Of a DNA stretch of 64,000 nucleotides, positions 1 through 64,000 are shown one piece after another; within the stretch, counting starts at the first letter, position 1, and each line of letters opens with the position of its first letter. The stretch is taken from positions 1,054,001 through 1,118,000 of the forward strand of contig NZ_CP139035.1 in assembly GCF_029854705.2 (NCBI RefSeq), read 5' to 3'. Both the position numbers and the translations under genes were made by a program. Source of the DNA: Akkermansia sp. N21116. Its GTDB lineage: Bacteria; Verrucomicrobiota; Verrucomicrobiia; Verrucomicrobiales; Akkermansiaceae. The notes beneath the pieces were generated by a model, which saw only the letters and a list, made by a program, of their open reading frames with translations, ran no database searches and was not told the origin of the DNA.

Positions 1-1
1 A

Positions 2-130
2 AAAAAATTAAATAAAATAACGATTCAAATTGTAGATTACCCTAAAAATGAATATATTAGTTATGATTATATAAATATGATTACTCCGGCAAAAGAAACA
101 TCGCGTTTCAATTCGTATATAATTAAATAA
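2..130 (+). CDS. C-terminal end of an unidentified protein (cut by window edge)
   Basis: An open frame enters from the left window edge and reaches a TAA at 128-130, leaving 42 codons that end SYIIK. The composition is AT-rich like the genes that follow, with ordinary lysine, isoleucine and tyrosine codons. No domain can be recognised from so short a tail, and there is no start codon in view. It could also be chance open sequence, because stop codons in the other frames are only moderately frequent here. Confidence 0.3.
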   Translation, partial: KKLNKITIQIVDYPKNEYISYDYINMITPAKETSRFNSYIIK

Positions 131-496
131 TTAAAAAGTTAATTAAATTCTCTATTTCAATTATTTATTGGAAAATAATATATCGAAATTTTTTGTGATA
201 TATCCCTAGTTCGAAGTTGTGTGTTCCCGGTCGTCAATTAGTTAATATGAAGAAATTGTATTACAAACATCACAAACTGATACAGACATTAGAATTTCGC
301 AATGTCATTCGTATTGTATAGAATGCTCCAGAAGGAATGTCGTTTGAAACAAAATTGAGGACAGTTCAGAAATTGCATCGTAAAATAATAGATGGTGAAG
401 ACATATTGATACAACCCAGACAACAAGTGATTCGTTGAGCATTATGTCTTGTAGAATATCCTATTTACAGCATTAAAAATATTTATTGAAGTAAGA
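131..496. other. AT-rich intergenic stretch with a possible gene remnant
   Basis: No convincing complete gene is seen in these 366 bases. A frame open from 322 to 438, with an ATG at 337, would encode 33 residues ending QQVIR. Its content resembles real coding sequence more than random AT-rich DNA, so it may be a decayed gene fragment. A second short frame at 247-321 encodes about 24 residues. Neither has a recognisable domain or ribosome binding site. Confidence 0.3.
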
Positions 497-919
497 GTGA
501 CAAAAATAAATTCCCAATTGCTGGTTATATTGTTGGTATCCTGTTACAATAACGACGTTGTTCTCGACAAGGAAATCAAGACGAAAATATCTACTATTGA
601 TGTGAGTAAGATAGAATCATTGAATGATATTTTGGATAAGCTCAATATCAATTCTGCATTTTCATTCTGTGGCGAACGAGGAAATCGTGAAATCTTCCAA
701 CTTGAAAATAATGGATTGGTGATCGATTTAATACCCAGAGAACCACAACCTATCATCCCTTCCAATATAGATAATCTTCTGGCAGACAATAAATTGACGG
801 CAGGTAAGAAATCTTGTGAATCAAGGTATGAATATAAAAAATGTCGCAACGAATACCGAGGTGTTAATATTTACAGTCATGGAATACTAATGGCTACGAA
901 ACATATTTCTTTAAATTAA
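497..919 (+). CDS. small putative lipoprotein, unknown function
   Basis: A 140-residue protein starting at a GTG. The N-terminus has a short hydrophobic stretch followed by LLVSC at residues 12-16, which fits a lipobox with Cys16 as the lipidated residue, although the positively charged n-region is short. The rest is hydrophilic and contains several cysteines (around residues 58, 107 and 116). No known domain was recognised. It lies 16 bases before the Sel1-repeat gene on the same strand and shares its AT-rich composition, so the two may be co-transcribed. The GTG start has no clear ribosome binding site, so the exact start is uncertain. Confidence 0.5.
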   Translation: MTKINSQLLVILLVSCYNNDVVLDKEIKTKISTIDVSKIESLNDILDKLNINSAFSFCGERGNREIFQLENNGLVIDLIPREPQPIIPSNIDNLLADNKLTAGKKSCESRYEYKKCRNEYRGVNIYSHGILMATKHISLN

Positions 920-935
920 TGAAAAATAAATCCAT

Positions 936-2069
936 ATGAAAAATAGTTTGCAATCATGCATACATAAAGTATTATTTATAATATATTGTTGTATTTCGAC
1001 GGCATTAGCATTTTGGGTCCCTCCGGAGTCATTTGAGGATCTTGTGAATAGTTCGGAACTCATTATTACGGCAAAAGTTGGTCGTGTGCACATTGAAGAG
1101 AATAACAGCTACGTTCTATTAGAACCCATTGATGTATTATATGGTATCAATATACCGGAAATTCGGTTGGGAATTACTATTCCAGAAGTTTATTGTCCTA
1201 TTATTTGCTACAATGCTGGAAGAAAATATTATAATGGTGACGGGATCATAAAATACAAAGATCTCAAGAATGAGAGTTGCTACATTATTGAAGAAGATAA
1301 AAAATATTTATTTTTTCTTGAAATTTCGCGATGGCCTCAATCACCGTCATTTGGACTTTTAGACAAAGTTGAAGATTTTCCCCGCTCTTTTCTTCCATCT
1401 AATCCATCACTGGATTGTGTAATAGCTCGTCTTGAGGGAGATAAAATTATCAATTGGCCCTTTTCCATTGAGGGAAAAGTTATCGCTGACGATAACCTAC
1501 AATATCCGCCATTGGATTTTCAGGAAGTGAAAAGACAACTTATGTTGACTATTGATAAACAACATAAAAATGCTTTGGAAATGGCGAAAATGGGTGACCA
1601 GAGGGCTCAATATTTGATGTTTTATTATTCGGCCATGGGTGTAGGAATGAAACGCGACTTGCAACAAGCGTACTATTGGATGAACAAAACACCTTATGAC
1701 CCTTATCTTAAAGCTCAAATGGAAGAAATTAGAGAAACTCCGGAAGGGAATGAAAAAGCAATCAGTTACTACAAAGAGTTAGCCGATGATAATAATCTTC
1801 TCGCTCAATATCATTTAGCAAGGGCCTACTATGAAGGGAAAATGCTTCCACGAGATGATCGGAAATCTTTTGAATGGCTTTATTCGGCAGCACTTCGAGA
1901 ATTACCTGCTGCTCAATTAAAATTATCGGCCTATTATGCCCACGGAATAGGGACAAAAATTAATCTCATTCATTCCTGGCGTTGGCGCCTACGCGCCATG
2001 AAAAATGATTATCTTCCAGCCCTATATATGCCTTATCCGGCCTATGAATTATCCTCATTTAAAAATTAA
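936..2069 (+). CDS. exported Sel1-like repeat protein
   Basis: A 377-residue protein with a signal peptide (basic start, hydrophobic residues about 12-26, likely cleavage near ALA-FW). The middle (residues about 30-190) is unrecognised. The C-terminal half carries Sel1-like/TPR-type repeats: around 213-245 (AKMGDQRAQYLMFYYSAMGV), 285-320 (AQYHLARAYYEG) and 325-355 (AQLKLSAYYAHGIGT). Sel1 repeats form alpha-alpha hairpins that scaffold protein interactions, often in exported or membrane-associated regulators. The gene follows the small lipoprotein and is AT-rich relative to the core of the window. Its partners are unknown. The family call rests on repeat pattern alone but is fairly clear. Confidence 0.75.
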   Translation: MKNSLQSCIHKVLFIIYCCISTALAFWVPPESFEDLVNSSELIITAKVGRVHIEENNSYVLLEPIDVLYGINIPEIRLGITIPEVYCPIICYNAGRKYYNGDGIIKYKDLKNESCYIIEEDKKYLFFLEISRWPQSPSFGLLDKVEDFPRSFLPSNPSLDCVIARLEGDKIINWPFSIEGKVIADDNLQYPPLDFQEVKRQLMLTIDKQHKNALEMAKMGDQRAQYLMFYYSAMGVGMKRDLQQAYYWMNKTPYDPYLKAQMEEIRETPEGNEKAISYYKELADDNNLLAQYHLARAYYEGKMLPRDDRKSFEWLYSAALRELPAAQLKLSAYYAHGIGTKINLIHSWRWRLRAMKNDYLPALYMPYPAYELSSFKN

Positions 2070-2173
2070 TATAATATAAAAAGGTCAGGAAATTACGGTT
2101 GCATATTCCAAATTAATAATGACTAGAAAAAATAAAGTGTGTTAACACTCAACATTTTTATTATGTTGATACA

Positions 2174-2278
2174 ATGAGTAGTAAAAGATATATTACAGTA
2201 TTTGTTTCTTGTGCCTTCCTGCTTGTAAAGTCTTACGTCGATAAAACGATCATAGTATCTCACACAGAATCAATTGAT
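2174..2278 (+). repeat. direct repeat, copy 1 of a duplicated gene leader
   Basis: This 105-base segment is about 87% identical to 3022-3126, in the same orientation and 848 bases apart. Homology starts at the ATG and ends sharply after codon 35. About 11 of the 14 differences change an amino acid, which is unusual for two copies of a conserved signal peptide. Confidence 0.75.
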
Positions 2279-2368
2279 GAAATGGAATGCATCGCTTGTG
2301 ATGATTCAATTGTTTTATGTGTATTAAAGAAATTTCGCTGTCTATGGTTTAAATTTATATTTTACTAA
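2174..2368 (+). pseudogene. truncated copy of the leader of the gene at 3022
   Basis: The first 35 codons match the first 35 codons of the gene at 3022-4005 (26 of 35 residues and about 91 of 105 bases identical by hand alignment), including the signal peptide and the shared segment IIVSHTESID. After codon 35 the two diverge abruptly and this frame stops after 64 residues. It is probably the 5' remnant of a duplicated gene, although a short secreted peptide that kept only the leader cannot be excluded. The next frame begins at 2371 in a different reading phase. Confidence 0.6.
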
Positions 2369-2370
2369 AT

Positions 2371-2823
2371 ATGTTTTTAGCATTATATTCATGTCTTAGT
2401 GTTCTTGGTCTGTCTATCAATAATGACCTCGTTTCGGTTAATTCATCAAATGATTTTTCTGTTTGTGTGTATTGTGAAAAATTTGATTCAGGAGACTTAA
2501 TAAAATATGTAAAACAGCGATTTGTATTAAGAGATAATAAAATAAAGCACTATTCGACAATATTTATATTTTATTATAAAGGTTGCAATTCTGGAGTAAC
2601 TGAAATATTTGTGCAAAAAAATGAATATGGAAATCATATCATACAGTGGGATTATTCCAAAGCCAAGAGTGTTAGAACGACTACAACAGAAACTAGTCCA
2701 TGGCCATGTGGAGTCAATTTCTATACCTATGATAAAATTAAATCCATTTTAGAGGCACAATTCATTTATCGGACTAAATGGTATTTTATAAATAGTTTAA
2801 AAAGTTTTTGTGAAAATTATTGA
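2371..2823 (+). CDS. putative exported protein, unknown function
   Basis: A 150-residue protein starting at ATG 2371 with a hydrophobic N-terminus (residues about 2-17) that could be a signal peptide. The remainder is rich in Tyr, Lys, Ser and Cys (Cys at about 32, 35, 68 and 110), suggesting a small disulphide-containing or beta-rich extracytoplasmic protein. No known domain was recognised. It starts 2 bases after the stop of the truncated leader copy, in a different frame, so it might be the displaced body of that gene after a frameshift. Its sequence does not resemble the body of the gene at 3022. Confidence 0.45.
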   Translation: MFLALYSCLSVLGLSINNDLVSVNSSNDFSVCVYCEKFDSGDLIKYVKQRFVLRDNKIKHYSTIFIFYYKGCNSGVTEIFVQKNEYGNHIIQWDYSKAKSVRTTTTETSPWPCGVNFYTYDKIKSILEAQFIYRTKWYFINSLKSFCENY

Positions 2824-3021
2824 ATTTGATGGAATTGTTAAAATCTAATCGAAAGATAAATTCCCAATATTGTATTACAAGCATTGGATGAAGTTTTATG
2901 AATATTCCAAATGATGATATATCTGAAGATTTAAAGCATGAATATATTTGTAATTCAGGATGAATTTCATTTTTAATAGAATCATTATGAGTAAAGTGGA
3001 GAATTTCGTAGGTTTGTTAAA

Positions 3022-3126
3022 ATGAGTAGTAAAATATATATTAAAATATTTGTTTTTTGTGTCTTCTCGCTTACAAAATCTTACGCCGATAAGGCGATCA
3101 TAGTATCTCACACAGAATCGATTGAT
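3022..3126 (+). repeat. direct repeat, copy 2 of a duplicated gene leader
   Basis: Partner of 2174-2278. It encodes the signal peptide and the first mature residues of the intact gene at 3022-4005. The boundary of similarity falls inside the coding sequence, not at a gene end. Confidence 0.75.
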
Positions 3127-4005
3127 TCATTTGGTGATGACAAGGTAGCTATGATTTCCCGTGAAAACAGGAAGAGAGAATTTGAAGAAAGAGTTATTGC
3201 GTATGAAGAAAAGATTCCGCATGAATTGGGAAGACAATTTGATCGCATACCTGATGGAAAAGAAGATTATTATCCACTAATGCCGAAGGAAGATCGTGTT
3301 TTTTGGATTGACGTTTTCAAAAACTATACAAATTATAGTTTGAATGAAAAGCCGACTAGACCGACATTTCTTTGCGACAAGGTTTCGGAAACAAATGTTT
3401 GGAAAGCGTTCCTGTATTCACAATTTCCCGACTTGGATCTATGTCTTTATCTAAAACGTGGAGACAGTCCCATTCCTGTCTTCGTGATACTCAATCAAGG
3501 TCATATTATCAGCCTTCATTCTGATCAATTCAATAAATCCGGGATGAGAGGCAATCTGGATTCAATAGACTATGCAATTAGTCAAGGAGGTGATTTTTTT
3601 AAAACATGGCTAAAGCACTTCAAAGATTCTCTCCATACAAAAAAACTGGATGACAGGACATACATGAAAATAATGGAGGTGTTTTCAAAAATAATTTCTC
3701 AAAGTCGAGAGGCTGATGATCTGCATTATGCGACAGATCTCTATCAGACAGACATCAACATGATTCGCCATTTTAATCACCTCGGATCACGCCCCGTTTT
3801 CAATCAGAACATTCAAATATTCATCCAGGGTAAAACAGGAAATTGTGAATACAGCATGGCGGAGCTCTACTTGGATAATGAACTTCCTAAAATTATTTTA
3901 TTTTTCATATACGATCTATCAAACCAAAAAATGGATTATGATTATCTGGAAGACAAGTATTTCAAGCCCATGGGTATTCGGATCAAGAACAATGAAGTAG
4001 AATAG
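3022..4005 (+). CDS. exported protein, unknown function
   Basis: A 327-residue protein with a probable signal peptide (MSSK start, hydrophobic residues about 6-18, cleavage near SYA-DK). The mature part is charged and mixed alpha/beta in character with no transmembrane segment. Residues about 45-60 are strongly charged and may form a helix. No known domain, catalytic motif or repeat was recognised. The first 35 codons are duplicated at 2174-2278. It is AT-rich like its neighbours, and the next gene is convergent on the minus strand 18 bases away. It could belong to a lineage-specific family of surface or periplasmic proteins, but the sequence gives no function. Confidence 0.6.
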   Translation: MSSKIYIKIFVFCVFSLTKSYADKAIIVSHTESIDSFGDDKVAMISRENRKREFEERVIAYEEKIPHELGRQFDRIPDGKEDYYPLMPKEDRVFWIDVFKNYTNYSLNEKPTRPTFLCDKVSETNVWKAFLYSQFPDLDLCLYLKRGDSPIPVFVILNQGHIISLHSDQFNKSGMRGNLDSIDYAISQGGDFFKTWLKHFKDSLHTKKLDDRTYMKIMEVFSKIISQSREADDLHYATDLYQTDINMIRHFNHLGSRPVFNQNIQIFIQGKTGNCEYSMAELYLDNELPKIILFFIYDLSNQKMDYDYLEDKYFKPMGIRIKNNEVE

Positions 4006-4023
4006 TTCAAATCATATCTAGTC

Positions 4024-4494
4024 CTATTCCTCAGAGGCTGGCATCTTGGTACATCTTTTTTGCGGTATGCCCATCAACAAGGCGAATTCACAATCTGTCT
4101 CAAAACGTTGGTGGCAGTTCCTGCATTCGATTTCCAATTTTTCTTCTTCGGACATATCGAAATTATTATTTTTTGTATAATAGTAATAGGTATGTCTGTT
4201 GCCGCACAATGGGCAAGGTATTGACGTCATTTTTCTTGTACGGTACAATATCAGCGGTATGCCGCATAGAACGATGAATCCCATGATGATATACTCCATG
4301 GAAACCCATTGGTTCTTCAGAGATACGATTGTTACAAGGATGGCGAGGATAAACGATGTGAAAGCAAGTATAATTGTTTTCCAAAAGACAGTGCGAATAT
4401 ATTCATAGCACGGAATAATCAATGGATTTTTTTCGCACGTGTATTTTCCGGAAAATCTACCATTCATCAGATCGTTTAATTTCCTTTTTCCCAT
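4024..4494 (-). CDS. membrane protein with C-terminal zinc ribbon
   Basis: A 156-residue protein from ATG 4494; an in-frame TTG at 4551 would add 19 residues. Two transmembrane helices lie at about residues 36-60 and 67-85, followed by CPLCG near residue 95 and CRNCHQ near residue 128, a four-cysteine zinc ribbon. The ATG is preferred because a TATACA hexamer ends 5 bases upstream, matching the promoter layout of other genes here. Two helices plus a soluble zinc ribbon suggest a small inner-membrane protein with a cytoplasmic metal-binding domain. Its role is unknown. It faces the island genes tail to tail. Confidence 0.55.
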   Translation of the reverse strand: MGKRKLNDLMNGRFSGKYTCEKNPLIIPCYEYIRTVFWKTIILAFTSFILAILVTIVSLKNQWVSMEYIIMGFIVLCGIPLILYRTRKMTSIPCPLCGNRHTYYYYTKNNNFDMSEEEKLEIECRNCHQRFETDCEFALLMGIPQKRCTKMPASEE

Positions 4495-4893
4495 GGTTGT
4501 GTATAGTCGATTTTTAGATTCTATCCCATGAACAGATGTATTGATAGTCAACGATCCAAATGGGCTGAATTCTTCCGAATAAGTACGCGGAAGTAACTTT
4601 TGTACATGCTAGCTCATGATACAGCAGGCTCAATACCAAAGTGTAGCTGCCCGACTCTTGTTGGCTCTTTGGATACTAGAGGTGAGCTCTGTAATCGTGG
4701 TTTACTGGCTGTTGTAGGAGGCTCCCCATGCGAGGCCGGCAAGAAGGGAAAACCTGTTGGTCAGTGTGAGGCTGGTCTGCCTGTTGATGTTGTGCGTCTT
4801 GCGTTGTTCGGTAGTATGAATAGGAGAAGCTGCCCCATGGGGATGAGGCAGCTTCTGTTGTGAGGGGTGGGTGTTTGTGGGACGTGGGCAGGA
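4495..4893. other. boundary between the AT-rich island and the GC-rich core
   Basis: No gene is confidently assigned. Base composition switches from AT-rich to GC-rich near 4600. A plus-strand frame at 4600-4863 is open for 87 residues with Gly, Cys and Arg-rich content, but has no recognised domain and overlaps the hairpin behind the GH89 gene. It may be a remnant of an inserted or lost gene. Confidence 0.3.
4825..4856 (-). terminator. hairpin downstream of the GH89 gene
   Basis: A perfect 10-bp inverted repeat (AGAAGCTGCC and GGCAGCTTCT) flanks a 12-base loop, 37 bases beyond the GH89 stop codon. A strong T-run is not present after the stem on the minus strand, so it may be a weak terminator or an RNA-stabilising 3' hairpin. 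Confidence 0.5.
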
Positions 4894-18699: not shown

Positions 18700-20043
18700 A
18701 TGATCGGAGAATCGACGATTGCCTCACTGGCAAGCCCCGTTGGGCAGGGAGCCCTGTCCGTGATCCGCATGAGCGGAGGCGATAGCCTTGCCGTATTGCG
18801 CCGCTGTGCCCGCCTGCCGGAACAGGTGGAAGCCCGCCGCGTGATGCTGACGGATATTCGCGATGAACAGGGCGATTCTATCGATCAGGTGCTGGCCGTC
18901 TGGTTTCGTGGGCCTGCCAGTTACACCGGAGAAGACCTCGTTGAAATCTCCTGCCACGGCGGCATGCTGGTAACGCGCCGCGTGCTGGAACGCCTGTACT
19001 CCTGTGGAGCCATTCCCGCCGAACCGGGAGAATTCACCCGCCGTGCCTTCATGAACGGCAAGATGGATCTTACGCAGGCGGAAGCCGTCATGGATGTAAT
19101 CTCCGCCGGGAGTGACCTGGCCCTCAAGGCGGCTCGCGAGCAGTTGGATGGAGCCATCGGGCTCGCTGCTACAGCGATGATGGACAAATTGATCCACGTG
19201 ACCGCCCACGTCGAAGCCTACATCGACTTCCCGGACGAAGATATATCCCCCGATACCGTTGATTCCCTGACGGGCAGCCTGAAGGAAATCCGCGAAGGCA
19301 TGGAACGCCTGCTCCGCACCGCCGATCAGGGGCGGCTTTTCCGTGAAGGAGTCCGCACTGCCATCGTCGGCGAACCGAATGTCGGCAAATCCAGCCTCTT
19401 GAATGCCCTGCTGGGCTACGAACGCGCCATCGTCAGCGATGTGCCGGGGACAACGCGCGACACCGTCGAAGAATCCATTCAGGTCGGCGGCCTTGCCCTG
19501 CGGCTCATCGACACCGCTGGCGTCCGCGAATCCACCGACGCCATCGAACGCGCCGGTATCGAGCGCACGGGACGCGCCGTGTCTGGGGCAGATTTGATTC
19601 TGGAAGTCGTCGATTCCTCCCGTCCTGCAAGCACAGCTGATATCGTGCAAGGCGGAGAAGGCATCCCCCGCATCCTCGTCCTCAACAAGTGCGACCTTCC
19701 GGAAGATCCGGCATGGTCCGGCGTGCCGGGCGTCCGTTTCTCCTGCACCTCCGGCATGGGCCGCGACGACTTGGAACAAGCCCTCTGGCAAGCCTTCGCC
19801 GACCGTTTCCCATCATCTGAAGGCGCAGGCCTGGCCTCCATCAATGCCCGCCACCAAAGCGCCCTGAAACGCAGTGCCGAAGCCCTCGCCCGCGCCGAAT
19901 CCTCCCTGTTGGCCGGAGACAGCCCCGAATTCACAGCCGTCGAACTGCGCGATGCCCTCGATTCCCTCGGCGAACTTACTGGTCGCGTCGATACCGAAGA
20001 TATCCTAGGCGCCATTTTCTCCTCCTTCTGCATCGGGAAGTGA
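18700..20043 (+). CDS. mnmE: tRNA modification GTPase MnmE
   Basis: A 447-residue GTPase that, with MnmG, installs the (carboxymethyl)aminomethyl group at C5 of wobble uridine. An N-terminal tetrahydrofolate-binding domain (about 1-120) precedes a helical domain that contains an inserted G domain: G1 GEPNVGKS at 224-231, DVPGTTRD around 247-254, G3 DTAG at 271-274 and NKCD near 328. The protein ends with the catalytic CIGK motif at 444-447. Length is normal. It directly follows mnmA. Downstream DNA is AT-rich and non-coding, so it is the last gene of this group. Confidence 0.96.
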   Translation: MIGESTIASLASPVGQGALSVIRMSGGDSLAVLRRCARLPEQVEARRVMLTDIRDEQGDSIDQVLAVWFRGPASYTGEDLVEISCHGGMLVTRRVLERLYSCGAIPAEPGEFTRRAFMNGKMDLTQAEAVMDVISAGSDLALKAAREQLDGAIGLAATAMMDKLIHVTAHVEAYIDFPDEDISPDTVDSLTGSLKEIREGMERLLRTADQGRLFREGVRTAIVGEPNVGKSSLLNALLGYERAIVSDVPGTTRDTVEESIQVGGLALRLIDTAGVRESTDAIERAGIERTGRAVSGADLILEVVDSSRPASTADIVQGGEGIPRILVLNKCDLPEDPAWSGVPGVRFSCTSGMGRDDLEQALWQAFADRFPSSEGAGLASINARHQSALKRSAEALARAESSLLAGDSPEFTAVELRDALDSLGELTGRVDTEDILGAIFSSFCIGK

Positions 20044-20320
20044 TCCATTATCACCCTTCTGTCTCGCTACAATAACAACTTCCTATCGTGTGCCTTGGTG
20101 TGTAAGCTTGTTTATAATGAAGATGGATAGGATAATAAGAAGACATAGAAGAAAAAGGATTCAAGTAAACGCGATTAGCAATACACGAGGATGTTTAGGT
20201 AAAGTTAAGTACTGCACTTTTCGCAAAATATATTCAGCTTCAGAAGTGAGACATTAACACGATAGTGCCAATAATGCTAGTAGCTTTTTCATCGCTTAAA
20301 GATTAGAAAATTAATAATAT
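20044..20320. other. AT-rich junction upstream of the nuclease-helicase gene
   Basis: 277 bases without a gene. The composition changes from GC-rich mnmE to AT-rich sequence within a few tens of bases, consistent with the edge of an acquired segment. A TATAAT-like hexamer occurs near 20117 but without a convincing -35 box. No inverted repeats or tRNA-like attachment site were seen. Confidence 0.35.
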
Positions 20321-22342
20321 ATGCGTCACTACTACCACAATACAATAACAGCATTCCTTAATCAACCGCTTGATGCGATTTGGTTACAATTGACTGCTGT
20401 TGGGCGTGGAGATTTGCTCAATACTCAAAAGCAAGCCTGGGCGGAGCAGATAAAAATACTTAAAACGCATCTTACCGGATTCACAGGTGATATATTCTTT
20501 GAATATTCAATTCCTCGTATGGGGAAACGTATCGACGCCGTGCTGCTGATTGATGGGATTGTGTTTGTGGTGGAATTTAAGGTTGGATCCGAGGAGTTTA
20601 CTGGGGCAGATATTAATCAGGTTTGGGACTATGCACTCGATTTGAAATACTTTCACGAGGAGAGTCATCACCTACCAATTATTCCGATTCTTGTTTCTAC
20701 AAATGCTAAGGAGAACGATATTTTACTCTTTCAGTATGATGACCAAATAGTACGTCCAATATTGAGTAATGGCGACAATATAGCAACCATTATTCGACAG
20801 TCGCAATTGGTTTTCCCTCCGACATACATAGACAACTATTTGTGGAGTATTAGTCGTTATGCACCAACGCCAACAATTATTGAGGCAGCACAGGCTCTCT
20901 ATAAAAACCACTCAGTGAAGGATATTTCACGCTCCGATGCAGATAATCTCACTGATACGAGTGATTATATTTTTAAGGTAATTGAGCGGGCTAAGGCCGA
21001 ACATAATAAGGTTATATGCTTTGTTACGGGGGTGCCCGGAGCAGGCAAAACACTTGTTGGGCTCAACATATCGACTCAAAGTGCAAGTAAAGAGGGTGTA
21101 AATGCGGTCTATCTGTCGGGTAATGGCCCATTAGTGAAAATTTTGGTTGAGGCATTGACTCGTGATAAGATTCGTCAACTCAAAGAGAAAGGTGAGAAGT
21201 GTACAAAAAAAGAGGTAGAGCAAGAGGTAAAATCTTTTATTCAGAATGTCCACCACTTCCGTGATGCTTGTTTGGAGGGTACAATTATTAAGAATGGTGA
21301 GATTGTTGCCGATTTGGAGTATTTTCGGAGCGAGAAAAATAGAGATAAATCATACGCTCCGATTGACCACATAGCGATTTTCGATGAGGCGCAACGTGCT
21401 TGGACCAAAGATATGACGGCTGACTTTATGCGCCGTAAAAAGAATCGTCTGGGCTTCCCATATTCCGAGCCGGAGTTCTTGATTTCGTGTATGGATCGCC
21501 ACAAAGATTGGGCGTTGATTGTTTGCCTTGTTGGTGGCGGTCAGGAGATCAACACAGGTGAGGCAGGTATTAGCGAGTGGATAGCATCAATAAATAATCA
21601 CTTCAAAGATTGGCACGTGCATATCTCTTCACGTTTGACGGACAAAGAGTATGCGGAAGGCGAATCGTTGAATCTACTTGCTGATCATCCAAATGTATAT
21701 ATAACTGATGAACTACATCTAGCCGTTTCGCTACGCAGTTTTAGAGCCGAAAAGCTATCGCTGTTTGTACATCAGCTTTTGGATATGGACAAGGAGGGGG
21801 CTTCGGAGACACTCAAAGAGCTAACTAAATATCCGATAGTGTTGACACGTGATGTCAAAAAAGCCAAACGATGGATCAAGGAGCGTGCTCGAGGAAATGA
21901 ACGTTATGGTATTATCGTTTCGTCACAGGCTTATCGTTTGCGGCCATTGGCAATTGATGTACGTGTGAAGCCTGATCCTGTGCACTGGTTCCTATCTGAT
22001 AGAGAAGACATCCGTTCATCATATTGCATGGAAGATGTTGTAACGGAATTTGATATTCAAGGTTTGGAATTGGACTATACTTGTGTCGTATGGGACGGAG
22101 ATTTTCGCTTTAAGCATGGTGATTGGGGGACATATTCATTTGTGGGTAACAAATGGCAAAATATTAAGAAAGAGGATCGCAAGATGTACCTAAAGAATGC
22201 CTATCGAGTTCTGCTGACTCGTGCTCGGCAAGGGATGGTTATCGTAGTGCCACATGGCGATCTGGAAGATCACACGCGCAAACCAGAATATTACGACTCG
22301 ACGTATAAATACTTGAAATCAATAGGATTAGAAGAAATTTAA
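20321..22342 (+). CDS. PD-(D/E)XK nuclease fused to DUF2075-type SF1 helicase
   Basis: A 673-residue two-domain protein. The N-terminal part has the order Asp72 (RIDAVL), then Glu85-Phe-Lys87 (VVEFKVG), fitting a PD-(D/E)XK nuclease core at about 60-130. The C-terminal part is a superfamily-1 helicase-like ATPase: Walker A GVPGAGKT at 237-244, Walker B FDEAQ at 354-358, a motif-V-like EFDIQGLELDYTCVVW near 595-610, and motif-VI-like LLTRARQG near 635. Such proteins act on DNA or RNA and several relatives are candidate phage-defence factors, but the role here is inferred. The AT-rich codon use and AT-rich flanks, unlike both neighbours, indicate horizontal acquisition. Confidence 0.82.
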   Translation: MRHYYHNTITAFLNQPLDAIWLQLTAVGRGDLLNTQKQAWAEQIKILKTHLTGFTGDIFFEYSIPRMGKRIDAVLLIDGIVFVVEFKVGSEEFTGADINQVWDYALDLKYFHEESHHLPIIPILVSTNAKENDILLFQYDDQIVRPILSNGDNIATIIRQSQLVFPPTYIDNYLWSISRYAPTPTIIEAAQALYKNHSVKDISRSDADNLTDTSDYIFKVIERAKAEHNKVICFVTGVPGAGKTLVGLNISTQSASKEGVNAVYLSGNGPLVKILVEALTRDKIRQLKEKGEKCTKKEVEQEVKSFIQNVHHFRDACLEGTIIKNGEIVADLEYFRSEKNRDKSYAPIDHIAIFDEAQRAWTKDMTADFMRRKKNRLGFPYSEPEFLISCMDRHKDWALIVCLVGGGQEINTGEAGISEWIASINNHFKDWHVHISSRLTDKEYAEGESLNLLADHPNVYITDELHLAVSLRSFRAEKLSLFVHQLLDMDKEGASETLKELTKYPIVLTRDVKKAKRWIKERARGNERYGIIVSSQAYRLRPLAIDVRVKPDPVHWFLSDREDIRSSYCMEDVVTEFDIQGLELDYTCVVWDGDFRFKHGDWGTYSFVGNKWQNIKKEDRKMYLKNAYRVLLTRARQGMVIVVPHGDLEDHTRKPEYYDSTYKYLKSIGLEEI

Positions 22343-22346
22343 TTTC

Positions 22347-22364
22347 ATCGATTGTATAGACAAG
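22347..22364 (+). repeat. short direct repeat, copy 1
   Basis: An 18-base element (starting ATCGATTGTA and ending ACAAG) repeated at 22379-22396 with 16 of 18 bases identical and 14 bases between the copies. It begins 4 bases after the stop of the nuclease-helicase gene. It could be a protein-binding site or a trace of the insertion. Confidence 0.5.
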
Positions 22365-22378
22365 CGAACTTAAAAAAT

Positions 22379-22396
22379 ATCGATTGTAAAAACAAG
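22379..22396 (+). repeat. short direct repeat, copy 2
   Basis: Second copy of the element at 22347-22364, differing at positions 11 and 13 of the unit. It lies in AT-rich non-coding DNA between the nuclease-helicase and PNPOx genes. Confidence 0.5.
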
Positions 22397-22509
22397 ATTT
22401 TTCTAATTCGATAACTTACTGTTAAATGCCAATTTTTTTTATGGTCGACAAACTATACACCAATTCGTGGTTGCCATGAGTTGGTGAGAACTGTTACCCT
22501 CATCCCATT

Positions 22510-23181
22510 ATGAATATTGAAGAAAAGGCGGTTCAGATCGTTGCGGCGGCTCAGATTATTACGGTGGCATCTATTGACGAAAATGGCTATCCGCGTCCGG
22601 TTGCCATGGTGAAACTGAAGGTTGAGGATGGAGCGATTTATGTGTCAACGGGAGCCAGTTCTGCAAAAACGGCTCACTTCAAGGCTAATCCCAAGGCCGG
22701 GATTTCGATTGTGCATGGCGGCGACAGTATCGTTTATACGGGCAGGATGGAGATTGTGGCGGATGAGGCTGTGAAGCGTTCGCTTTGGGGGGACTGGATG
22801 CTTGAGCATTTCCCCCGTGGTGTGGAAGATCCTGAGTATTGCGTGCTTAAATTTACGCCGGAAGCAACGACGTACTGGATTGATAATGTGTTTATGAAGG
22901 GGCAGAAGTATTTGAATCTGTTCTGCCAGAGTTGCGGAATGCCCATGCATTCTGCCGACCAGTTCGGAACGGATAAAGACAGTTCCGCCAATCGGGACTA
23001 TTGCTGCTATTGCTACAAAGACGGAGAGTTTGTGCAGGATTGTTCCATGGAAGGCATGATCGAACATTGCATCAAGTATCTTGATGAGTTTAACGCTTCC
23101 AGTGGTACTCAACTCTCAAAAGACGAGGCTATTGCTGAAATGAGAAAGTATTTTCCGCGGCTGAAAAGATGGGCAAAGTAA
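22510..23181 (+). CDS. PNPOx-fold flavin-binding protein with zinc ribbon
   Basis: A 223-residue protein. Residues about 5-128 form a split-barrel domain of the pyridoxamine 5'-phosphate oxidase-like family (VASIDENGYPRPVAM, then YVSTGASSAKTAHF and GISIVHG), which usually binds FMN or a related cofactor. Residues about 138-200 add a putative zinc ribbon: Cys139 and Cys142 (CQSCGMPM), and cysteines at 165, 166 and 168 (CCYCYKDGEF). The C-terminal helix ends MRKYFPRLKRW. The zinc ribbon is also found as a separate domain in other proteins, so this is a domain fusion. The substrate is unknown. The gene returns to core-like GC content after the AT-rich block. Confidence 0.78.
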   Translation: MNIEEKAVQIVAAAQIITVASIDENGYPRPVAMVKLKVEDGAIYVSTGASSAKTAHFKANPKAGISIVHGGDSIVYTGRMEIVADEAVKRSLWGDWMLEHFPRGVEDPEYCVLKFTPEATTYWIDNVFMKGQKYLNLFCQSCGMPMHSADQFGTDKDSSANRDYCCYCYKDGEFVQDCSMEGMIEHCIKYLDEFNASSGTQLSKDEAIAEMRKYFPRLKRWAK

Positions 23182-61966: not shown

Positions 61967-62212
61967 ATGATGACAGATGCTATGAATTACCGCTTGGTCA
62001 TGATGTGGTGTTTTGTGGGCGCCATAATACTGGGGATCGTTCAATTCGCTATGGCTGTGAGTTGTTTTATGTTGAAACCTTTCATGGCGGGAAAAGCCTC
62101 TTTGATTGAGAATGGCTTCTATGAGATCGGATCTTCCTGTCGGGGAGGTAATCCTAGTGAAAATACTGTTCATTTTCTGTTGGTAAATATTATAAATATC
62201 GCCAAGCAATGA
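61967..62212 (+). CDS. possible small membrane protein
   Basis: An 81-residue frame starting at ATG 61967 with one predicted transmembrane helix (about 8-32, MMWCFVGAIILGIVQFAMAV). No family was recognised. A minus-strand frame covers the same region, so coding status is uncertain. It lies at the start of the AT-rich island and may be a decayed or very young gene. Confidence 0.25.
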   Translation: MMTDAMNYRLVMMWCFVGAIILGIVQFAMAVSCFMLKPFMAGKASLIENGFYEIGSSCRGGNPSENTVHFLLVNIINIAKQ

Positions 62213-62256
62213 TCCGGAGTATGATGATATTATTTTTGAAGTAACTATAAAAATAG

Positions 62257-62784
62257 ATGGAGATGAAAAAAGTAATTGTATCCTTGTTGTTTCTGATAAT
62301 TTTAGTTTTATTTGTTTTGTTGCCAAGTAGTAATCATAAAACAGATATTTATCCGGCTATATCAGATAGTTGCAAAATTGTATCTTATTATGATGGAGAT
62401 GTTTTTGCCGGAGAGTTTAATGTTGCAATTTATTCGTACTTTAATGAATCAAAGAAAGAGTTTTCTCCTCCTGTATTTTTTGTTCATGGACCGTCGGAAT
62501 ATTTCTTTTCGGTCAATTCTACTTTGCCGACATCAAAAGGATATATCAAAGATAAATTTATTTTCAAATCAAGTGTTTTTGATCCTAAAATATTTCCTGT
62601 AGATGGACATCTAAAAACAGTATGTGACGATCTTGGCGGTATTTATTATACTAAAGAGTATCGTTTGGTTTATGATGTTGTTGCAAAATACGTTGATTAT
62701 GGAAAAGACAATTTATATATATCTGACTACCATATGCCGGGAATGAAGAAAATAATATTGAAATATAAAAGGAAAACAAATTAA
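62257..62784 (+). CDS. exported protein, unknown function
   Basis: A 175-residue protein from ATG 62257, or the ATG 6 bases later. The hydrophobic N-terminus (about 5-23) is a signal peptide or anchor. The mature part is rich in Tyr, Phe, Lys and Asp with probable beta strands. No domain was recognised. A TATAAA hexamer ends 5 bases before the first ATG, resembling the promoter geometry elsewhere, but a matching -35 is not clear. It is 5 bases upstream of the next gene and probably co-transcribed with it. Confidence 0.5.
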   Translation: MEMKKVIVSLLFLIILVLFVLLPSSNHKTDIYPAISDSCKIVSYYDGDVFAGEFNVAIYSYFNESKKEFSPPVFFVHGPSEYFFSVNSTLPTSKGYIKDKFIFKSSVFDPKIFPVDGHLKTVCDDLGGIYYTKEYRLVYDVVAKYVDYGKDNLYISDYHMPGMKKIILKYKRKTN

Positions 62785-62789
62785 CCGAT

Positions 62790-63428
62790 ATGAAAATATT
62801 TATTGTTTTGTATTTTATATATGCCATCGTGCTTTGTTTTGTTCTTGGAGATAATAAAATATACCCCAATGCTGAAATATGCTCTTTGCCGTCGGAAGAA
62901 GATAAGAGATTTCTCAAAAACTTGATTGCAAATAAATTTGAAACGTGCGACGGAAAAATAAATATTACAAATTTCAACATATATTATTCTTGTGATGATT
63001 GTAATTTGTCCGACATGTCTAAAGGATATATAAATTTCGACTCTTTTCTGTCGTATCAATTATCAATAAATGGAGAATCAGGTAAATGTGTGAATTATGT
63101 AGGGCCTGAAAATTATTTATCTAATCCATTTTTTATAAAAATACGTATATCTGATCATGTCGAATCGAATTTGGAAAATAATAGAATTCTAAGCGAGGAT
63201 GAAAAAATAGGAAATATATCATCGATTTCCATAGATAATATTAGAATTGATCCACAAGATTATAGAAAATGTATTGTCCGATATGTTGATGGTGTTTTAT
63301 TTTGGGAGGCTAAAGTTTTTGTTCTCTATGATTTGGATATTTTGTTTCATAAAGGTGAAGAAATGGGGAGAAGATCTATTTTTAATAGACGGGTGGAAAT
63401 AAAAATTCGCAACCGAATATCTATTTGA
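62790..63428 (+). CDS. exported protein, unknown function
   Basis: A 212-residue protein with an N-terminal hydrophobic segment (MKIFIVLYFIYAIVLCFVLG). The mature part has several cysteines (about 31, 53, 67, 70 and 99), suggesting disulphides, and a beta-rich pattern. No family was recognised. It follows the gene at 62257 by 5 bases. Similar AT-rich exported proteins occupy the opposite end of the window, but no clear sequence similarity between the two groups was seen by eye. Confidence 0.5.
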   Translation: MKIFIVLYFIYAIVLCFVLGDNKIYPNAEICSLPSEEDKRFLKNLIANKFETCDGKINITNFNIYYSCDDCNLSDMSKGYINFDSFLSYQLSINGESGKCVNYVGPENYLSNPFFIKIRISDHVESNLENNRILSEDEKIGNISSISIDNIRIDPQDYRKCIVRYVDGVLFWEAKVFVLYDLDILFHKGEEMGRRSIFNRRVEIKIRNRISI

Positions 63429-63906
63429 AATTTTATTTAAGCAATCTTAACATTTATAAACATGGGTATATTTTGCTCCATGAAAATTGTTGTATTGATT
63501 TTATGCTGAATAGTGAAGTGTAAGAAAATACCATACAGGCAGTAACAGTCGAAATAAATACTCTCCCCATAACAAGACCGTCAAATTCTAATGCCGAGAA
63601 TCGAATGGTTATGATGCCGGGAGTATGAAAACATCTTGTGTTTAGTAATATTCGGAGGTGGGTACAAGATGATGCCGTTAGCCCTTTCCTGTCTTTATAT
63701 TCGTCGATTTGTCGATGATATGTCGCTGCGGAGGAAGGCGGAAAACAATCATGTTCCAGTGGTGGAGTATGATCTGTAACCGGAAATTTGACTTTCTTCG
63801 GAAATGGTTTTGATATAATATTATTCTATTCAGGTAGAAGGACGGTTGTTTATGAGAAATAACCTCAACTTCCTTGGACAGAACATCAAAGATAAGGCGT
63901 TCTATC
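63429..63906. other. AT-rich non-coding stretch with small open frames
   Basis: No convincing gene. A plus-strand frame is open from 63615 to 63779; an ATG at 63669 with GGAGG 10 bases upstream would give a 36-residue peptide. A minus-strand frame at 63678-63908 is also open. Neither has a known domain. The region separates the AT-rich pair from the secreted gene at the right edge. Confidence 0.3.
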
Positions 63907-64000
63907 ATGGATCAATGGAAAATATTTTCGTGTTGTTTGGCTGCTGTGTGTTTGGGGGGAGTGGTTTCTCGCAGCGAGGGTGCGGAAGAACATGGGAATC
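63907..64000 (+). CDS. start of a secreted protein (cut by window edge)
   Basis: ATG 63907 opens a frame that continues to the window end. The visible 31 residues form a typical signal peptide: basic/aromatic start, hydrophobic core (about 7-20) and a likely cleavage after EGA. Codon composition is closer to the GC-rich core than to the AT-rich genes before it, so the island may end here. The rest of the protein lies outside the window. Confidence 0.6.
   Translation, partial: MDQWKIFSCCLAAVCLGGVVSRSEGAEEHGN

Follow-up and report, generated by a model that had tools for sequence, protein, structure and literature searches.

The window, by which we mean the whole stretch of 64,000 nucleotides analyzed here, contains a single open reading frame on the forward strand in the gap that runs from the stop codon of mnmE to the start of the next gene (20044-22509). 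The reading frame (20321-22342) is intact and has no internal stops. The preliminary description had placed one nuclease-helicase gene at 20044-22509; its single gene was recovered, although the range proved to be that of the full intergenic gap and the gene itself spans only 20321-22342. The features of the locus are as follows:

18700..20043, + strand: mnmE (trmE), a core gene present throughout the genus (76 of 76 genomes), with the insertion site at its 3' side
20044..20320, no strand: spacer upstream of the gene, AT-rich (34% GC)
20321..22342, + strand: nuclease-helicase gene of the PDC-S41 type, 673 aa (PADLOC PDC-S41, E 8e-275, residues 1-673)
20321..20860, + strand: predicted N-terminal PD-(D/E)XK nuclease domain, residues ~1-180 (motifs, model with pLDDT 85, structural matches)
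21008..22252, + strand: SF1 helicase, PF09848 SLFN-g3_helicase, residues 230-644 (Pfam E 9.9e-77)
22343..22509, no strand: spacer downstream of the gene, AT-rich (33% GC), in which a direct repeat of the mnmE tail was not found

Promoter-like patterns in the upstream spacer did not rise above chance. The protein matches the PADLOC PDC-S41 profile over its full length (positions 1-653 of 657), without notable difference in domain make-up, and searches of its 673 residues against NCBIfam and PHROGs returned nothing useful. By this match, the window gene is a new member of an already catalogued single-gene defence candidate. The PDC families stem from 'guilt-by-embedding' and have been described as unvalidated (PMC12988326, PMC10855318). 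Two other PDCs proved inactive when assayed in their native host (PMC12409345), which calls for caution with PDC-S41, and no functional or anti-phage assay results for PDC-S41 were found in the literature searched. An alignment of 11 homologues (49-74% identical to the window protein) revealed one peculiarity, an insertion of ~22 residues near positions 319-340 that, among the 11, is common only to a homologue from Alistipes.

Two domains had been proposed from the sequence, an N-terminal PD-(D/E)XK-like nuclease and a C-terminal SF1 helicase with DUF2075-like character, along with a profile search for both. Pfam recovered the helicase and found no match in the N-terminal part, where the assignment is instead carried by residue conservation and modeled structure. 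The nuclease motif residues E61, D72, E85-x-K87 and Q100-xxx-Y104 are invariant in 17 N-terminal domains with identities down to 25%, and in the 11-homologue alignment D103 is invariant as well, beside E61, Q100 and Y104. The residues singled out beforehand as catalytic (D72, E85, K87 and, in the helicase, K243) sit at the given positions and are likewise invariant in the 11 homologues. When an AlphaFold2 model of the N-terminal 215 residues (pLDDT 85) was compared with known structures using VIA-align, the nuclease domain matched Can2 (Z 9.1), EndoMS/NucS-type nucleases (7.8), McrC (7.7) and Hjc (6.7), with further matches to Cdn1, NucC, BsaXI and FokI. In this model, residues ~1-180 are predicted to fold as a PD-(D/E)XK nuclease, presenting the alpha-beta core and the D...(D/E)xK motif of the superfamily. 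The fold is held in common with nucleases of the McrC, Can2 and Card1 type (Z 6 to 9), but these have an AAA+ partner or a CARF sensor, whereas the window protein has a fused SF1 helicase.

The helicase assignment rests on a nearly complete match to PF09848 (259 bits versus a cut-off of 24, positions 1-353 of 354), the family formerly named DUF2075. Its motifs comprise the Walker A sequence GVPGAGKT (K243), DEAQ (355-358), GGGQE (405-409), QGLELD (580-585) and YRVLLTRAR (628-636). D355, E356, Q408, E409, Q580, G581 and E583 are invariant in the 11 homologues; R629 and R634 come close to this, the exception being the partial Alistipes row, which does not have that end. The model of the whole protein reaches a pLDDT of only 69, a moderate value, and a structure search with it matched its C-terminal part to UvrD, Dda, RecD2, Pif1 and Schlafen helicases; the helicase half is closest to SF1 helicases of the UvrD, Dda, SLFN and RecD2 type. 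The idea of a single protein combining a nuclease and an SF1 helicase is common to Nhi (nuclease-helicase immunity), but the Nhi profile matches the window protein over only 34 residues in the Walker A region (E 0.0012) and not over its full length.

Likeness to the Schlafens extends beyond the helicase. The window protein has the PF09848 helicase family in common with the group III Schlafens (SLFN5, SLFN11, SLFN14), and its full model is collinear with SLFN14 395-912 and SLFN11 404-899. In these Schlafens the helicase is preceded by a linker, which resembles the window nuclease domain in fold only (Z about 7). The nuclease domain alone matched SLFN12 387-542 (Z 7.2), SLFN14 400-554 (Z 7.0) and SLFN5 373-550 (Z 6.8), and the Schlafen linkers rank among PD-(D/E)XK nucleases in its structural list, the other recognized entries of which we take to be restriction-endonuclease-like proteins. 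The aligned SLFN12 span corresponds to the C-terminal core, given as 387-541 in the structure paper (PMC8285493), and the function of the group III linker is described as unknown in another report (PMC8789055). A term search of Schlafen structure papers, run without 'PD-(D/E)XK' and with most subscription literature outside its scope, did not find a nuclease fold named for the linker. We tentatively propose, with slightly less than even confidence, that the vertebrate Schlafen 'linker' (SWADL) is a worn-down PD-(D/E)XK nuclease, and that linker and helicase half derive from a PDC-S41-like nuclease-helicase of bacteria. If true, this would provide an origin for the long-unexplained linker domain of the human antiviral Schlafens and would tie these proteins to a bacterial DNA-degrading defence protein. 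The scores are modest, however, and a Z near 7 could reflect a common arrangement. At the sequence level, hmmsearch with the N-terminal profile found only chance matches among PDB sequences and no link to Schlafens, and the whole-protein profile produced a weak Walker-region match to SLFN5 (E 0.86). The Pfam family SLFN_GTPase-like (PF21026) matched nowhere, controls included, and is therefore uninformative.

The same resemblance could be read to mean that the window protein is itself Schlafen-like, acting on RNA (e.g. tRNA) or in infection-triggered cell death, with a nuclease domain that cuts RNA. Its helicase half does belong to a Pfam family named after the group 3 Schlafens, and human SLFN11 is the best Foldseek match of the full-length model. 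The pre-helicase domain of the window protein, however, unlike that of group III Schlafens, has the full nuclease motif set, as DNases typically do, and most of the folds nearest to it belong to DNases. Moreover, the N-terminal Schlafen core endoribonuclease domain of group III is absent, with no Pfam match to it in the 673 residues and a PD-(D/E)XK domain at the N terminus. We regard this Schlafen-like reading as distinctly unlikely.

The genomic position of the gene was analyzed by comparing the region behind mnmE across the genus, where it varies among genomes. The preliminary description had located the gene between GC-rich core genes, which holds for mnmE on the left (62% GC) and fails on the right, where the adjoining gene (22510-23181, 48% GC) is present at full length only in the window genome among the 76 and is not core. 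This right neighbour reads as Pyridoxamine-oxidase-like, with a cysteine-rich C-terminal stretch, and 9 other genomes match one part of it only. The scan for defence genes covered the genomes whose mnmE sequences are closest to that of the window; for the other congeners, the gene order behind mnmE was compared. Behind mnmE, one genome (G011) carries a DRT UG24 reverse transcriptase and a DnaG-like gene at 33-39% GC, and in a second (G075), type III methylase and restriction genes accompany a RhuM/PDC-S05 gene, an HTH gene and part of a transposase. Others have an HNH endonuclease ORF (G006, G007), an ORF of 28% GC with CBS domains (G009), a secreted PEP-CTERM-like protein (G001, G013, G047) or nothing (G008, G010, G045). 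Since the nearest genomes have different contents there, the 3' side of mnmE is, as judged from gene content, a place of cargo turnover, with putative defence modules in three genomes, the window's included. The presence of other defence modules in related genomes makes it a good place to look for more. In G011, the reverse transcriptase is fused to an HD-CE domain (L030, 4854-9958). An integrase-type insertion was considered and rejected: the mnmE tail does not recur within 12 kb, and direct repeats longer than 9 bases do not flank the gene.

Composition, distribution and phylogeny were then considered together. The window gene has a GC content of 42.3% (GC3 40%) against 62.3% (GC3 70%) for mnmE, and it ranks third in codon-use deviation among the 36 longer ORFs of the window. 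Homologues occur in 12 of the 76 genomes of the genus, and only the window genome has one at the mnmE site; those of the other 11 congeners are ~45-52% identical to the window protein and located elsewhere, six sister genomes having theirs at one common site with the same adjoining genes. Across the phylum, 45 of 288 genomes have a match, several of the copies being split or partial. The closest relative found was a gene in an Alistipes MAG (L019; 74% identity). A maximum-likelihood tree built from 45 proteins groups the window and Alistipes genes at 100/100 and places the congeners in a separate clade (99/99). Vertical inheritance within the genus is ruled out by this tree: because it joins the window gene to Alistipes, apart from the congeners, the data support horizontal acquisition from outside the genus. 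The tree does not fix a transfer from Bacteroidota, since the sister group of the window-Alistipes pair belongs to the same phylum as the window. The transfer suggested in the preliminary description, from compositional contrast, is therefore upheld by patchy presence and phylogeny as well as by GC and codon use; the presence/absence comparison it proposed yielded no other congener with the gene at this site, and the ubiquity with core-like codon use that it had named as contrary evidence was not observed. The Alistipes homologue (L019, 6001-8019) has an in-frame stop after codon 590, beyond which similarity continues to the end, indicating either a broken copy or an assembly error. Other AT-rich DNA lies at the two ends of the window: positions 1-4600 (27-38% GC) hold short hypothetical, apparently secreted ORFs, two of which, at the left end, rank first and second in codon-use deviation, and positions 62000-64000 (31-35% GC) hold short hypothetical ORFs.

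Neighbourhoods of homologues elsewhere were scanned for defence families in a selected, non-random set, which can lend support without any claim of enrichment. On one side, the Alistipes gene is flanked by type I M and S genes along with an HNH gene and a PtuA-like ATPase; an ORF on its other side matches PDC-S01 faintly. A Kaiserbacteria copy (L021) follows Gabija GajA and GajB, and two further copies (L135, L138) adjoin GmrSD-type genes. Among viral contigs, in which genes were named by eye, homologues in prophage-like contigs lie at the edge of a lysis module (L105), near an integrase-like gene (L106) and near serine-recombinase-like genes (L107), and a further copy is found beside a C5 methylase-like gene (L108). 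The family match, the variable site with its defence modules in two sister genomes, and the Gabija, type I restriction-modification and GmrSD-type neighbours indirectly support a candidate anti-phage role, in line with the plausible defence function first proposed. Against a defence reading stand the many homologues that are surrounded by ordinary genes and lack any defence neighbour (L128, L133, L137, L140, L141), the moderate quality of the full-length model, the finding of no integrase, att repeat or mobile element flanking the window gene, and the retention of the homologue in six sister genomes. This retention at a common site with the same neighbours means that a homologue may persist for long.

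DNA-degrading enzymes such as RecB, AddAB and Dna2 are built in the same way, with a PD-(D/E)XK nuclease fused to a translocating SF1 motor. We consider it fairly probable that the window gene, acquired horizontally, constitutes on its own an anti-invader system of the PDC-S41 kind, degrading foreign DNA by translocation and cutting. The SF1 helicase half would load onto foreign DNA at a free end, a fork or a single-strand stretch and travel along it, driven by ATP, while the N-terminal domain would cut the DNA being fed through, in a manner likened to that of RecB/AddAB/Dna2-type nuclease-helicases. We infer that its substrate is DNA, that it is directed at the DNA of phages or plasmids, and that some self/non-self rule would spare the host's own. 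The domain order and folds would also fit DNA end processing, so that the protein could be an accessory repair or recombination enzyme (RecB- or Dna2-like), transferred incidentally and devoid of an anti-invader role, as the likeness of its helicase half to UvrD, RecD2 and Dda and its upkeep at one site in six related species might suggest. Such a role appears unlikely in view of the very patchy presence, the decayed and split copies, the defence neighbours, the variable site and the prophage-like carriage. That carriage, together with homologues in one phage record and two Persicobacter plasmids, raises a further alternative, namely cargo that, through plasmid competition or prophage superinfection exclusion, benefits its mobile element to a greater extent than its present host; with no element left around the window gene and most homologues found being chromosomal, we judge this quite improbable. 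For the favoured anti-invader system, the window provides a copy of the PDC-S41 candidate in a gut bacterium that is clean and intact and whose acquisition is clear, and hence a good gene to test.

Two arrangements were also noted around homologues elsewhere. In L034, L039, L040, L041 and L146, the homologue is directly preceded by a small HTH gene of the XRE type (by eye), which lies near it or slightly overlaps it; a conserved two-gene unit was considered on this basis and rejected, the HTH gene being upstream of several homologues and absent in the window. In L020 (4610-10209), the homologue belongs to a gene run with a MazG-like gene and a HIT-like gene (both by eye) and a second helicase with matches to Nhi and to the C-terminal part of PDC-S41, and this run is possibly a larger unit.
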